From the NCBI RefSeq assembly GCF_000377765.1, contig NZ_KB898668.1, positions 186,001 through 250,000 on the forward strand: a stretch of DNA of 64,000 nt, in the 5' to 3' direction. Shown in pieces: positions 4,254-46,988 of this stretch (position 1 is its first letter; every line of letters starts with the position of its first letter). This stretch comes from Gracilibacillus lacisalsi DSM 19029. Lineage in GTDB: Bacteria > Bacillota > Bacilli > Bacillales > Amphibacillaceae. Both the position numbers and the translations under genes were made by a program. Below the pieces are notes generated by a model. The model had not been told where the DNA came from, ran no database searches, and was given only the letters and a program-made list of their open reading frames with translations.

Positions 4254-4536
4254 ACCGAGAAAGCCCACTCGGTCCTGTCCAAAGTAGTTATTTTGATATG
4301 AATAATAGGCGTAACAACCGCTGCGGCTTGCCCACTTCGCTTTCCGTGGGACGTGTCTTCAGCTAACTTTTGTAAAGAAGATCGCTTTACAAAAGTGGAT
4401 CTTCAGATCACGCTGATCCCACAGGAGTCGAAGTGGACAGCCGCAGCGATGGTTTCCTTTACAAGCTATTTCAAAATGGCTACTCTGCTTACAAATGCGT
4501 TGATACCGCGGACTATATACTTTCTTTACTTATAAG
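4254..4536. repeat. Palindromic element copy R1 (MITE-like, no ORF)
   Basis: An approximately 280-bp nested palindrome with no credible gene. Ordered features: a hairpin ACCGAG / CTCGGT with loop AAAGCCCA (4254-4273); arms AGTAGTTATTTTGA (4283-4296) and TCAAAATGGCTACT (4471-4484); arms CGCTGCGGCT (4319-4328) and AGCCGCAGCG (4439-4448); and a tip hairpin of 12 perfect pairs (4366-4377 with 4385-4396) around a 7-base loop. The tip is framed by CAGCTA and GGATCTTC, which recur in other copies. The 3' end (TATACTTTCTTTACTTATAAG) is also shared with other copies. Confidence 0.85.
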
Positions 4537-4540
4537 AAAA

Positions 4541-4760
4541 ACTGAGAAAGCCCACCTGGTCCTTTTAATTGACCAAAATAATATATCGATGGTATAAAGT
4601 AGTTATTTTGAGATGGATATTGGGCGTAACAACCGCTCCGGCAGCCCCTTCCCTTTCCGTAGAGTTTGGCCTTCAGCTAACTTTTTCGAGTCAAAACCGC
4701 TCGAAAAAGTGGATCTTCAGGTCAAACAGTTTCCACAGGAGTGAAAGTCGGCTGCCTTCG
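4541..4760. repeat. Palindromic element copy R2
   Basis: A second copy, head-to-tail with R1 and in the same orientation. It keeps the AAAGCCCA hairpin (4541-4560, arms partly decayed), the AGTAGTTATTTTGA block (4598-4611), GGCGTAACAACCGCTCCGGC, the CAGCTA / GGATCTTC frame, and a tip hairpin of 11 perfect pairs (4680-4690 with 4700-4710). The tip stem sequence differs from R1 yet remains fully complementary. Outer arms GGCAGCC (4640-4646) and GGCTGCC (4750-4756) also pair. The 3' terminal segment is not recognisable. Confidence 0.8.
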
Positions 4761-4886: not shown

Positions 4887-4919
4887 AAAAAAGCTGAGCA
4901 TTAATGCTCAGCTTTTTTT
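4887..4919. terminator. Bidirectional terminator at the end of ctaM
   Basis: AAAAAAGCTGAGCAT / ATGCTCAGCTTTTTT with a TA loop and poly-T on both strands. It overlaps the ctaM stop codon at 4918-4920 and ends the ctaG-ctaM transcript. Confidence 0.9.
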
Positions 4920-6850: not shown

Positions 6851-7471
6851 TTAAAGCACCCCCATGAGATAAACTACTGTGAAGATAAATACCCATACAA
6901 CATCAATAAAGTGCCAGTAAAGACTAGCAACATAAAACTTTGGTGCATTGTATAAATTTAACCCTCGTTTTGCATTTCGGATCATCAATGCGGTGATCCA
7001 TAACAGACCGAACACAACGTGACCTCCGTGGAAACCAACAAGTGTATAGAATGCTGAACCAAATGCTGAAGATCTCATTGTGAAGTGTTCACCATGAATA
7101 TAATGATAGAACTCATAAATTTCACAGCCAAGGAAACCAAGACCTAAAACAACAGTAATTCCCAACCAAATTTGCATCTTTTTAAAGTCATGGTTTTTCA
7201 TATGGTACATTGCATAAACACTCGTTAATGAACTAGTCAATAGTAACATTGTCATAATGAATACTAGCTCAAGTCCAAATAATTCTTCTGATGTACTGCC
7301 GCCATTTGTTGAATCTTTCAGAGCTAAGTAAGTACCAAATAAACTAGCAAAAAGTACAGTTTCTCCACCTAGGAAAAACCAAAAACCCATAAACTTGTTT
7401 TTACCTTCTAAGGTGGCTTTTTCAGGGTCATGAGGCATTTGTTCTGGATTTAGCACATCTTGTTCACTCAT
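6851..7471 (-). CDS. ctaE: caa3 cytochrome c oxidase subunit III
   Basis: 206 aa with five membrane helices, as expected for the short bacterial subunit III. Motifs: the F-W-F-F-L-G-G-E start of helix 1, the G-C-E-I-Y-E-F-Y-H near 115, the H-G-G-H-V-V-F-G helix near 148-155, and Y-W-H-F-I-D-V-V-W-V-F-I-F near 185. Its start codon shares a base with the ctaD stop (7471), so translation is likely coupled. It belongs to the ctaC-D-E-F set. Confidence 0.95.
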   Translation of the reverse strand: MSEQDVLNPEQMPHDPEKATLEGKNKFMGFWFFLGGETVLFASLFGTYLALKDSTNGGSTSEELFGLELVFIMTMLLLTSSLTSVYAMYHMKNHDFKKMQIWLGITVVLGLGFLGCEIYEFYHYIHGEHFTMRSSAFGSAFYTLVGFHGGHVVFGLLWITALMIRNAKRGLNLYNAPKFYVASLYWHFIDVVWVFIFTVVYLMGVL

Positions 7472-9330
7472 TATTCCTCTGCCTCCTTCTTCAAGTCTTC
7501 TTTATGGATATGGTAACCTAGGTCATCTTTAACAGATCTAATTAACATACATCCTAGTGTGATACCCATACCGATAAATAGTACGATTAACCATGATAAA
7601 TCATACTTTTGATAAATGAAACCAAAGCCTGCAATGAATAAACCTAAAGACATTACAAACGGTAAGAAAGAATTATTTGGCATATGAATATCTGTAAGCG
7701 GTTCTGCTGGTGTCATGCCTTTTCTTCCTTCGGTTTTTTCTACCCATAACGGGTCTAAACCACGAACTAATGGTAATTGCTTAAAATTATAGAATGGTGG
7801 AGGTGATGGTATTGCCCATTCTAATGTACGTGCATCCCATGGGTCCCCACTCACTTTTTCATTTTTTACAGAAGTTTTAATAATATTGATTAATAAAACA
7901 ATGGTACCAATTCCCATTAGGAAAGCGCCGATTGTACTGATCAAGTTTCCTAAATCAAGTCCTTGACCTTCTAAATATACCCAATAACGTCTAGGCATAC
8001 CCATTAATCCTAAGAAATGTTGGATAAAGAACGTCAAGTGGAAACCAACAAAGAATAACCAGAAAGTAACTTTTCCTAATTTATCATCTAAGACGGTACC
8101 AAACATTTTTGGCCACCAGTAGTGTGTACCTGCAAGCAATGCAAATACAACCCCTCCAACGATTACATAGTGGAAGTGTGCGACAACGAAATACGTATCA
8201 TGGTACTGAAAGTCAGCAGATGCCGCTGCAACCATAACACCTGTCATACCACCGAGAGTAAATGTAGGAATAAACCCTAATGCCCACAACATCGGCGTAT
8301 TTATCTGAATATTACCACCCCAAAGGGTAAACAACCAGTTAAAAATCTTGATACCTGTTGGAACAGCAATCGCCATGGTGGCGACAGCAAAAATTGAGTT
8401 TGCCGCTGGTCCCATACCTACTGTAAACATATGGTGAGCCCATACCATGAATCCTAAGAAACCAATTAATACAGTTGCAAATACCATTGCTGTATAACCA
8501 AATAGGCGCTTCTTAGAAAAAGTTGATATAATTTCACTAAAAATACCAAAAGCAGGTAAAGCCAAAATATAAACTTCTGGGTGTCCGAAGATCCAAAACA
8601 AGTGTTGCCAAATGACAGAGTTACCACCCATGGCAGGATCAAAGAACCCTGCACCGAATAATCGGTCAAACATCATTAAAAATAAACCTACTGTTAATGC
8701 TGGAAATGCAAATAAGATAAGTGCACTCGCAACAAAAGCAGTCCATGTAAATAGTGGCATTCTCATATAAGTCATACCTGGTGCACGCATGTTTACAATC
8801 GTCACAAGGAAGTTAATACCCCCTATCAATGTACCTGCACCTGAAATTTGTAGACCTAGTACATAGTAGTCTACACCCTCACCTAGTGAAGTAGTAGAAA
8901 GGGGTGCATATGCTGTCCAACCAGCATCTGCGGCTCCACCTGTAAACCAACCTACGTTTAACATAATTCCACCAAATAAAAATAACCAAAAACCTAATGA
9001 GTTTAAAAACGGAAATGCAACGTCACGTGCCCCAATCTGTAAAGGCACTACTGCATTCATAAACGCAAAGATTAACGGCATTGCTGCCAGAAATATCATC
9101 GTTGTACCGTGCATTGTGATTAACTCGTTATAAAAACCTGCACTTACAAAGTCGTTCATCGGTTTTACTAATTGCCATCTAATAGCTAATGCTTCTAAAC
9201 CACCAATGATAAAGAAGAAACCACCAGCTACGAGGTACAAAATAGCAATTTTCTTATGGTCTACTGTTGTTAAGTAATCCCATAATGTGGCACCGAAGCC
9301 TTTTTTGTTCGTAGCTACCATAGTACTCAC
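7471..9330 (-). CDS. ctaD: caa3 cytochrome c oxidase subunit I
   Basis: 619 aa with about 14 membrane segments; the catalytic subunit binding heme a and the heme a3-CuB centre. Ligand motifs are visible: M-H-G-T-T-M-I-F near 82-90 (low-spin heme His), W-I-F-G-H-P-E-V-Y near 258-265 (CuB His and the cross-linked Tyr), the H-H-M-F-T-V-G pair near 309, and [13 protein letters not shown] near 392-404 (heme ligands). The GTG start at 9330 follows GGGAGG ten bases upstream; a second possible start, ATG, is three codons in. The length and extra C-terminal helices match the Bacillus caa3 type. Confidence 0.96.
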
Positions 9331-40913: not shown

Positions 40914-41020
40914 CAAAAACTTACCCCTTTTCCATTATTCATACTAGATAACTACTGAGAAGTAATGAAAATTCTGTTTAGTGAGCTTTCTTCCATTCTT
41001 CTTAAGTTGAGTGCTAATTC

Positions 41021-41146
41021 GTCGCTGAGGAAAAACACTCCCTTTCCGGTGGCACGGCCTCAGCTAACTTGGTGAAGAAAATCACTTCACCAAGTGGATC
41101 TTCGTCGCGTGAGTTCCCCCCCAAGAGTGTCGCATTTTTCCGCAGC
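41021..41146. repeat. Palindromic element copy R3
   Basis: Core copy of the R1 family: outer arms CTGAGGAAAAACACTC and GAGTGTCGCATTTTTCCGCAG, the CAGCTA / GGATCTTC frame and a tip hairpin of 11 perfect pairs (41067-41077 with 41085-41095) around a 7-base loop. Its stem sequence is unlike that of R1, R2, R4 or R5. Between ykuR and dapH. Confidence 0.8.
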
Positions 41147-41235
41147 TTAGTGTGTATTTCTTATCAAGTAAGAAGACATTCACAGAATATATATACCAAA
41201 AGTTCTCTTCTTTCGATAAGTAGAACACTACACTT

Positions 41236-41363
41236 AGCGGAGGCAGAATACGGAGACTCCTATGGGAATTCACGCGAGCTGAAGACCCCGCAGGAAAGCG
41301 ATATTTGCTTTCCGAGGAGGCTGAGGCCGTGCCCATGGAAAGCGCAGTATTCTGCCGGAGCGG
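41236..41363. repeat. Palindromic element copy R4 (inverted)
   Basis: Same family in opposite orientation, 90 bases from R3. Outer arms GGCAGAATAC (41242-41251) and GTATTCTGCC (41347-41356); tip hairpin GGAAAGC / GCTTTCC (41293-41299 with 41307-41313) around a 7-base loop. Its complement carries GGCACGG...CCTCAGC and GGTCTTCAGC, which align with R3. Confidence 0.75.
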
Positions 41364-41435
41364 GTGACATCACTTATCTCTAATCAGAATGGAAAAAAGT
41401 AATTTTATTACGCACCATTTTACATTCTTTTCTTA

Positions 41436-41468
41436 AAAAAGACAGGATCTACATGACCCTGTCTTTTT
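41436..41468 (-). terminator. Terminator after dapH
   Basis: AAAAAGACAGG / CCTGTCTTTTT, 11 perfect pairs, poly-T on the minus strand. It separates dapH from ykuR. Confidence 0.85.
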
Positions 41469-44854: not shown

Positions 44855-44937
44855 TACTATCCCTGTCACAAACAGAGGCAGGGACAAAAGAGAAATTAGA
44901 TAGGGAAAATCCGAACATTAAAGTCTGAGTACACATA

Positions 44938-45056
44938 CCGCTTCGGCAAAACACTTCGCTTTCCGTGGGCTTACTTAAGCTAACTGTGTGAAGAAAAACA
45001 CTTCACACAGTAGATCTTCGGCTCGTGCTCGTCATGCGGAGTCTGCGTATTTTGCC
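44938..45056. repeat. Palindromic element copy R5
   Basis: Arms GGCAAAA / TTTTGCC at the ends (44945-44951 with 45050-45056), then ACTTCGCTTTCCGTGGGC, AAGCTA and AGATCTTCGG framing a tip hairpin of 11 perfect pairs (44983-44993 with 45001-45011) with a 7-base loop. The stem has its own sequence. Surrounding bases 44855-45135 hold no gene. Confidence 0.8.
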
Positions 45057-45135
45057 TACAAAAAGTTCAGATTGTTCGGATTCTCATTCTACTTATTTAG
45101 TTATGTCCCAGCCTCTGTACATTTCTATCCATATA

Positions 45136-46754: not shown

Positions 46755-46988
46755 GATAAACCGGGAAAGCCCACCCGGTCCTGTCAAAAGTAGTTATTTT
46801 GACATGAATAATAGGCGTAACAACCACTCCGGCTGCCCACTTCGCTTTCCGTGGGGTTTGTCCTTGCACCTCCTGATAGCGAAGTAATTAGTCGGAGCGT
46901 TGGCAAATACACTTAAAATTTATCAAAATAACTACTTTTTTAATACCGTGATTATGCTGATTTTATGCTTTCTTTCCATATCAGCATA
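46755..46988. repeat. Palindromic element copy R6
   Basis: Hairpin ACCGGG / CCCGGT with loop AAAGCCCA (46760-46779), 17-base outer arms AAAAGTAGTTATTTTGA (46786-46802) and TCAAAATAACTACTTTT (46923-46939), perfectly paired, and the ATTTTATGCTTTCTTTCC end. The central CAGCTA-tip hairpin is replaced by CGAAGTAATTAGTCGGAG. No gene; it lies between patA and its terminator. Confidence 0.85.

Follow-up and report, generated by a model that had tools for sequence, protein, structure and literature searches.

Covarying palindromes of Gracilibacillus lacisalsi are probably parts of non-autonomous elements seated at transcription terminators

Introduction

Stem-loops, terminators in many cases, are reported to be the insertion sites of IS1272 and of a transposon constructed from it, and the insertion deletes the stem-loop wholly or partly (PMC5678879; PMC4923244). 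The former proposes that element ends are joined to a cruciform at either of its feet, with the stem-loop being replaced in one case (pathway a) and duplicated in the other (pathway b) (PMC5678879). Described repeats of bacterial genomes also include the MITEs bcr1, RUP, NEMIS and EFAR, covered in another report (PMC3733652), and Bhal-1 of Bacillus halodurans, an intergenic repeated stem-loop family of 74 bp and 36 copies (PMC2267715).

The window analyzed here is the whole 64,000-nucleotide stretch of Gracilibacillus lacisalsi DSM 19029 contig NZ_KB898668.1, positions 186,001 to 250,000. An earlier note on this DNA described five hairpins (R1–R5) with different, perfectly paired stems, and knew of no named family that fits. 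The latter statement is not supported, since the ends of R5 are those of IS1182-family insertion sequences (ISs) and some full-length ISs of that family carry the palindrome to which the hairpins belong. R5 resembles the IS1272/IS1182-family ISs in its ends, in insertion at a terminator stem-loop and in replacement of that stem-loop (PMC5678879; PMC4923244), and ISSep1 and three other IS1182-family ISs have an internal palindrome in common with the MITEs. Unlike those ISs, the elements described here have no transposase gene, are multi-copy and often contain two palindromes, and R1–R4 have other ends. The stem-loop duplication seen in the f32 genomes corresponds to pathway b, which is drawn in PMC5678879, part of whose discussion gives no example.

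As with bcr1, RUP, NEMIS and EFAR, the elements are short and geneless, have inverted-repeat ends and occur in many copies. Compared by description only, they differ from these MITEs in their conserved, covarying palindrome of ~120 nt and in terminator targeting. They share many extragenic palindromes and inverted pairs with REP/REPIN sequences with RAYT, and differ in length (~120 nt versus 20-40 bp), in having no RAYT link at six loci, and in the IS1182-type ends of R5. Group IIC introns favour sites after terminators, and have insertion by terminators in common with the present elements; such an intron was considered and rejected, with no RVT_1 in the organism's own genome and no Rfam intron match in the window. 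Bhal-1 is likewise an intergenic stem-loop repeat of a bacillus, a likeness of description and not of sequence. A literature search, with subscription papers mostly outside its scope and absence unproven, returned no description of this palindrome family, and five sequence strings did not occur in the literature searched.

Palindromes in the Window

Mechanical inverted-repeat detection (R1, R2, R3 and R5) and direct reading of the sequence (R4) placed all five hairpins where they had been reported, every stem perfectly paired, and each hairpin is the tip of a larger palindrome of ~120 nt. The palindromes (with covariance-model scores) and the features around them are as follows.

4322..4446, + strand: R1 palindrome, 119.4 bits; tip 4366-4396, stem 4366-4377/4385-4396, 12 bp, loop 7, 100% complementary
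4637..4760, + strand: R2 palindrome, 122 bits; tip 4680-4710, stem 4680-4690/4700-4710, 11 bp, loop 9, 100% complementary
41026..41145, + strand: R3 palindrome, 80.3 bits; tip 41067-41095, stem 41067-41077/41085-41095, 11 bp, loop 7, 100% complementary
41238..41359, − strand: R4 palindrome, 91.1 bits; tip 41293-41313 with CCTCC-type flanks, stem GGAAAGC, 7 bp, loop 7, read from sequence
44942..45060, + strand: R5 palindrome, 92 bits; tip 44983-45011, stem 44983-44993/45001-45011, 11 bp, loop 7, 100% complementary
46828..46912, + strand: sixth copy, degraded, 17.1 bits
4242..4276, − strand: left end of the R1 element, own terminator-like hairpin, reading leftwards ...CGGTTTTTCTTA
4471..4528, − strand: right end of the R1 element (its start in leftward reading), approximate; adjoins the R2-element terminator, -7.1 kcal/mol
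4529..4563, − strand: left end of the R2 element, own terminator-like hairpin
4887..4918, unstranded: host terminator hairpin by the R1/R2 stack, inverted repeat
40986..41399, unstranded: R3+R4 composite, two palindromes head to head, outer ends partly complementary
41436..41468, unstranded: host terminator hairpin by the R3+R4 element, inverted repeat
44874..45116, + strand: R5 element, 243 bp, ends AGAGGCAGGGACAAAA / TTATGTCCCAGCCTCT, palindrome internal; putative IS1182-type MITE

The palindrome is built of an outer stem followed by the conserved step CTTTCC/AGGAG, a GTGGG/CCCAC stem that has variants, another stem, the conserved TCAGCTA/GGATCTTC internal loop, and a variable tip with an A-rich loop. 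The tip flanks of R4 differ from the others (CAGCCTCCTC...GCGGGGTCTTCAGC). Fold z-scores from 200 shuffles each were -5.19 for R1, -4.71 for R2, -1.81 for R3, -4.15 for R4 and -3.22 for R5, R3 alone being weak. The inner part and second palindrome of the R1 element appear to have been deleted, since R1 joins straight to what is the outer flank of the second palindrome in other copies. A cloverleaf fold of the whole composite was also considered and rejected: pairing of the outer arms (28.7 versus 17.4 shuffled, sd 3.4) lies only slightly above that of other elements (25.1), with inner arms at 23.2 versus 15.9 shuffled and 20.5 in other elements, so family likeness accounts for most of this pairing.

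Size and Spread of the Family

A covariance-model search had been proposed in the earlier note, where few further copies would have counted against the reading. A model built from 22 copies recovers all five window copies at 80-122 bits and finds at least 150 matches in the organism's own genome, the lowest of those listed scoring 94 bits, so that objection fails. A sample of 850 kb (19% of the genome) yielded 63 match rows, 53 of them kept as distinct palindromes and 10 discarded as opposite-strand shadows of other rows. These 53 palindromes lie at 32 sites, extrapolating to ~275 palindromes genome-wide, and the strand order is '+-' (an inverted pair) at 20 of the 32. Part of the spread is recent, as judged from 22 other copies that match R1 at 95-99% identity across at least 114 of 141 bases.

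The same kind of search across relatives detected the palindrome in 47 of 61 genomes, own included (E <= 1e-6): 17 of 17 in the genus, 18 of 20 in other genera of the family, and 12 of 24 in the order. A class-level sample gave matches in 19 of 220 genomes, own included (1e-8), and among named genomes an exact-pattern match occurred in Gracilibacillus boraciitolerans only. The young composite as query had no match in plasmid or phage collections; R5 gave a single match, to a plasmid of Radiobacillus kanasensis, with 48% covered at 74% identity. Among the relatives, one locus (L203 of G110, 1212-1681) has three tandem palindrome copies 189 bp apart, another (L184 of G012, ~1022-1057) has a group II intron end within the palindrome tip, and a third (L185 of G015) has an intron close to a palindrome copy.

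Empty Sites in Related Genomes

Comparison with relatives missing copies, also suggested in the earlier note, indicates that R1–R5 behave as mobile DNA. The window was aligned against 80-kb stretches of three relatives (G009, G016, and G002), and the site orthologous to that of R5 is empty in all three. R1 and R2 are absent from G009 and G016, and in G002 the gap matching their site holds an R5-type element. R3 and R4 are missing in G016 (a 21-bp gap), with a diverged copy present in G009 and G002. For the C5 region, the alignment with G009 ends at contig ends. As a separate observation, the tip types of the composite's two palindromes (41026-41359) are swapped relative to the G009 orthologue, as if the inner part had been inverted.

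Location at Intrinsic Terminators

Intrinsic terminators are where the elements sit: some directly follow the hairpin, R5 stands in its place, and in the f32 genomes elements are found with a copy of it on each side. In leftward reading, a GAAAGTATA-type motif marks the element starts and comes right after an intrinsic terminator. A terminator of <= -8 kcal/mol precedes 25 of 27 starts, the remaining two having -7.1 and -6.5, compared with 74 of 2000 random intergenic points, in a test where the motif was picked after viewing the ends and the loci came mostly from R1-like copies. Twelve of the 39 rows printed for this test were left out as opposite (left) ends of the elements by sequence, and 0 of these 12 have a terminator on that side. 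At four loci (L020, L021, L024, and L128) the terminator itself resembles part of another repeat. The young subfamily has its own terminator-like hairpin at the left end, and R1 directly abuts that of R2. With genes taken as long ORFs, 30 of 31 classified sites adjoin at least one gene 3' end, and divergent-gene gaps account for 1 of the 31 versus 63 of 318 gaps of >=100 bp (binomial P ~0.01).

Where R5 lies in the window, G009, G016, and G002 carry a hairpin (CAGGAAGAT...ATCTTCCTG), and the outer stem of R5 now occupies its position. No terminator duplication was found at 27 of 28 own-genome sites, with an AT-rich 13-mer at the other. Palindrome-bearing elements of the f32 genomes have an end, CAGACTGTAGACAAA, lying directly against a terminator hairpin. 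Of 30 loci examined with this end (out of 35 listed), 14 have the hairpin repeated at the other end, exactly over 13-32 bp. The covariance model confirmed a palindrome close behind the CAGACTGTAGACAAA end in 18 of the 30 (25-65 bits); the terminator is duplicated in 13 of these 18, the exceptions being L222, L233, L237, L247, and L248, and in one (L241) of the 12 where the model confirmed no palindrome. Further duplications occur at L207 (26 bp) and L208 (27 bp).

Two other kinds of sequence were seen at such places. A second repeat family of the own genome (AGCTCCGAGCGCCC type) likewise has a GAAAGTATAAA-type motif at its start, right after terminators, at L092, L093, L108, L110, L119, L120, and L121 (7 of 27 rows, by script label); it looks unrelated to the palindrome family, yet the two have one start in common. 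In G202, hairpins of ~42 bp with the same CAGACTG end stand directly after a terminator hairpin at L222, L236, L240, and L244, without a transposase.

Element Ends and IS1182-Family Insertion Sequences

The ends of R5 and of a set of f32 elements are those of IS1182-family ISs. A scan of viral contigs for the R5 end returned 32 stretches, seven of which hold inverted pairs 151-267 bp apart. One of the 32 stretches (L304) is an intact IS of 1.8 kb bounded by AGAGGCTGGGACATAA/TTTTGTCCCAGCCTCT, with a 522-aa transposase that scores 433 bits for the IS1182 family (cut-off 270); no terminator hairpin was seen by eye in its flanks. Seven IS1182-family loci, which include L304 a second time as L325, have a GGGACA-type repeat at both ends in five cases, a one-end variant in one and none in one, and the R5 ends AGAGGCAGGGACAAAA/TTATGTCCCAGCCTCT are related to the ends of L304, L320, L321, L322, and L326. 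A scan for the f32 end CAGACTGTAGACAAA returned 39 stretches, among them L254, L270, L279, and L281, where inverted ends of this type (<=3 mismatches) surround transposase ORFs of the IS1182 family (440-486 bits). In L254 and L279 the IS lies between two copies of one terminator hairpin, in L270 between two different hairpins, and in L281 it has a hairpin on one side.

No IS was found with ends matching those of R1–R4. The R1-type end motif (GAAAGTATA type) occurred in nine stretches of viral contigs, none of which by eye was one of these elements. Judged by sequence, R5 would be an IS1182-type MITE, and R1–R4 would be relatives with different ends. Neither R5-type copies (183-250 bp) nor young composites (~550 bp, with boundaries read by eye) contain a transposase gene. 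The own genome gave 0 matches to the DUF772 transposase profile, which scores the L304 and L281 proteins at 53 and 80 bits; breaks between the 44 contigs of this draft assembly are places where multi-copy ISs can go missing. The mover may thus have been lost from this genome, be hidden in a gap, or be of another kind.

Full-Length Insertion Sequences with the Palindrome

A full-length relative with a transposase, which the earlier note had recommended seeking, exists. Among 13 IS1182-family ISs examined with the covariance model, four carry the palindrome, always in the interval from one end to the start of the transposase gene and on the same strand as that gene.

L337 (G222): ends 2-17 and 1971-1986; transposase 97-1668, 426 bits; palindrome 1780-1886, 60.5 bits
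L336 (G024, of the same family as the own genome): ends from 5674 and at 7624-7639 (2 mismatches); palindrome 7441-7552, 55.5 bits; transposase 454 bits, its frame passing beyond the left end
L322 (annotated ISSep1; Staphylococcus hominis plasmid NZ_CP046305.1): palindrome 413-504, 36.9 bits; transposase 437 bits
L281: palindrome 2171-2274, 33.8 bits

L336 and L337 were noticed because the palindrome was present, and the fairer rate is 2 of 11 among the others. The model found no palindrome in the remaining nine (L254, L270, L279, L304, L320, L321, L323, L324, and L326). By eye, the leaders at L322 260-640, L336 7340-7640, and L216 1340-1700 have an extra hairpin by the end, as well as a segment potentially able to pair with the ribosome-binding site of the transposase.

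Covariation and Decay of the Fold

The fold covaries, as had been claimed: in a MAFFT alignment of 22 copies, 24 of 32 pairs show a double compensatory change. Across 57 copies from other genomes this rises to 27 of 32 pairs, with 92.6% of cells paired and a covariation score of 0.555 (0.178 shuffled, 0.08-0.12 slid), in an alignment fitted to the covariance model and hence biased towards it. Nearest-neighbour comparison of 115 distinct own-genome copies (122 rows), which as same-genome copies are not independent, gave 95 broken and 19 compensated pairs, with one-sided mismatch events divided into 25 G.T and 29 A.C. Relative to subfamily consensuses there were 54 compensated changes, 48 G.T, 42 A.C, and 50 other events; between the consensuses themselves, 124 compensated, 37 G.T, 23 A.C, and 44 other. 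A cruder count over 47 non-redundant copies of other genomes gave 42 G.T versus 25 A.C, with 15 events coming from two alignment columns that carry whole variants. Single copies decay without RNA-strand bias and pairing is retained at the subfamily level, which is the pattern expected if the fold matters for founding copies and not in place.

A screen for rewritten arms flagged six rows, two of them distinct and genuine. In these copies (L129:15668-15790, minus; L114:14525-14648, plus) the 3' arm now reads as the complement of the 5' arm, so that an otherwise conserved internal loop is closed. Template switching that rewrites palindrome arms is a process described in PMC8794818, and the two copies show that it contributes to renewed pairing. 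Because template switching can copy one arm from the other, covariation by itself is no proof of selection for the fold.

Alternative Explanations

The strong covariation and the position of 30 of 31 sites by a gene 3' end (genes being long ORFs) could reflect an RNA, either a 3'-UTR structure or a small RNA, that functions in place at each locus. The structured RNA put forward in the earlier note loses ground in this form, with G.T at 25 versus A.C at 29 and nothing in the window reaching a gathering score in Rfam; in addition, insertions differ among related species and terminator targeting accounts for the location, and we regard such a function as very unlikely. A different RNA role would be as a leader device of the IS1182-family ISs, which would attenuate transcription or block translation when read-through arrives from the gene whose terminator houses the IS, and which the MITEs would have passively inherited. 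The constant placement between end and transposase start in 4 of 4 palindrome-bearing ISs, along with the hairpin and potential ribosome-binding-site pairing seen by eye, makes this quite possible, but the palindrome occurs in just 4 of 13 ISs and we lean against it; the mismatch counts of the MITE copies (25 and 29), which offer it no help, say nothing on the ISs themselves, because MITEs would escape leader selection. Covariation might also be purely mutational, with arm-to-arm template switching keeping long palindromes perfect and no selection on the fold. The rewritten L129 and L114 copies and the description in PMC8794818 speak for such a process, yet they are the only clear cases among 122 rows (115 distinct copies), broken pairs outnumber compensated ones 95 to 19 in the own genome, and the loops CTTTCC/AGGAG and TCAGCTA/GGATCTTC, which blind arm copying would erase, are largely kept in the 57 copies. 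We therefore consider a purely mutational origin rather unlikely.

The family could instead be moved by a Y1 (HUH) transposase, either as REP/REPIN with RAYT or as an IS200/IS605-type system with the palindromes as end hairpins, and the '+-' pairs at 20 of 32 sites do resemble REPINs. The earlier suggestion of a REP/MITE or folded single-stranded DNA stands with respect to mobile DNA, given the empty sites, and is not supported for REP/RAYT: Y1_Tnp is absent from the own genome and from G002, G003, G004, and G011, all of which have palindrome copies, and none of six RAYT-like loci (L192-L197) has a palindrome. Likewise, three IS200-type loci (L176, L177, and L178) have no palindrome, and at L179/L200 the one palindrome is >1 kb off. 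The relative G006, of the same genus, fits a Y1 mover better, since 11 of 11 Y1 places examined have a palindrome within ~350 bp, eight lying between a '+' and a '-' palindrome and three with a palindrome on one side (11 of 12 places were taken, from 15 match rows, many partial or with stops, the weakest being omitted). The Y1 genes of these loci (L338-L348) are IS200-type and decayed; in eight elements, which are 77-83% identical to each other, the Y1 parts are 53-96% identical, piecewise, to IS200-type proteins from congeneric species. However, an IS1182-like end, CTGGGACAGAA, lies outside the palindromes at both ends of the two-palindrome elements L341 and L343 and at one end of L339, L340, L342, L345, and L348, with no such end printed for L338. 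As the outer ends of the G006 elements include CTGGGACAGAA, the Y1 gene is probably cargo of an IS1182-type element. Movement of the family by a Y1 transposase appears highly improbable.

Proposed Mechanism and Significance

We consider it likely that R1–R5 are parts of non-autonomous, terminator-seated elements (MITEs) with one or two internal palindromes. Several results stand against this explanation, namely the absence of an IS match for the ends of R1–R4 and of DUF772 from the 44-contig own genome, the lack of terminator duplication at 27 of 28 own-genome sites, the absence of the palindrome from 9 of 13 IS1182-family ISs, and the proximity of all examined G006 Y1 places to palindromes, which might point to a Y1 mover in that genome. 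In the mechanism we propose, an IS1182-type transposase acting in trans would attach the ends of an element to a terminator stem-loop, in cruciform form, at its foot, and as modelled for IS1272, joining at one foot would replace the stem-loop and joining at the other would duplicate it. R5 fits pathway a, and the f32 elements and L254/L279 fit pathway b; R1–R4 would have moved similarly, with other ends. The palindrome may persist because the DNA hairpin aids transposition or transposase control, with pairing maintained in founder copies, individual copies decaying neutrally, and template switching perhaps re-perfecting decayed copies on occasion.

A stronger version holds that the palindrome is a structural transposition signal, a fixed-loop DNA hairpin recognized through its shape by the transposase or by a partner. 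We think this rather unlikely at present. If true, shape reading would guide elements that contain stem-loops to targets that are stem-loops, and a single chemistry at the ends would lead to replacement in some lineages and to whole-terminator duplication in others.

With this analysis, a covarying repeat that had been anonymous becomes a named and testable system; it occurs in ISSep1 and, of 20 other genera sampled within the family, in 18. For screens that seek new RNAs it carries a warning, in that strong covariation within a repeat need not imply a functional RNA. The elements also provide natural examples of both outcomes of the proposed structure-guided transposition, in which the stem-loop is either replaced or duplicated.
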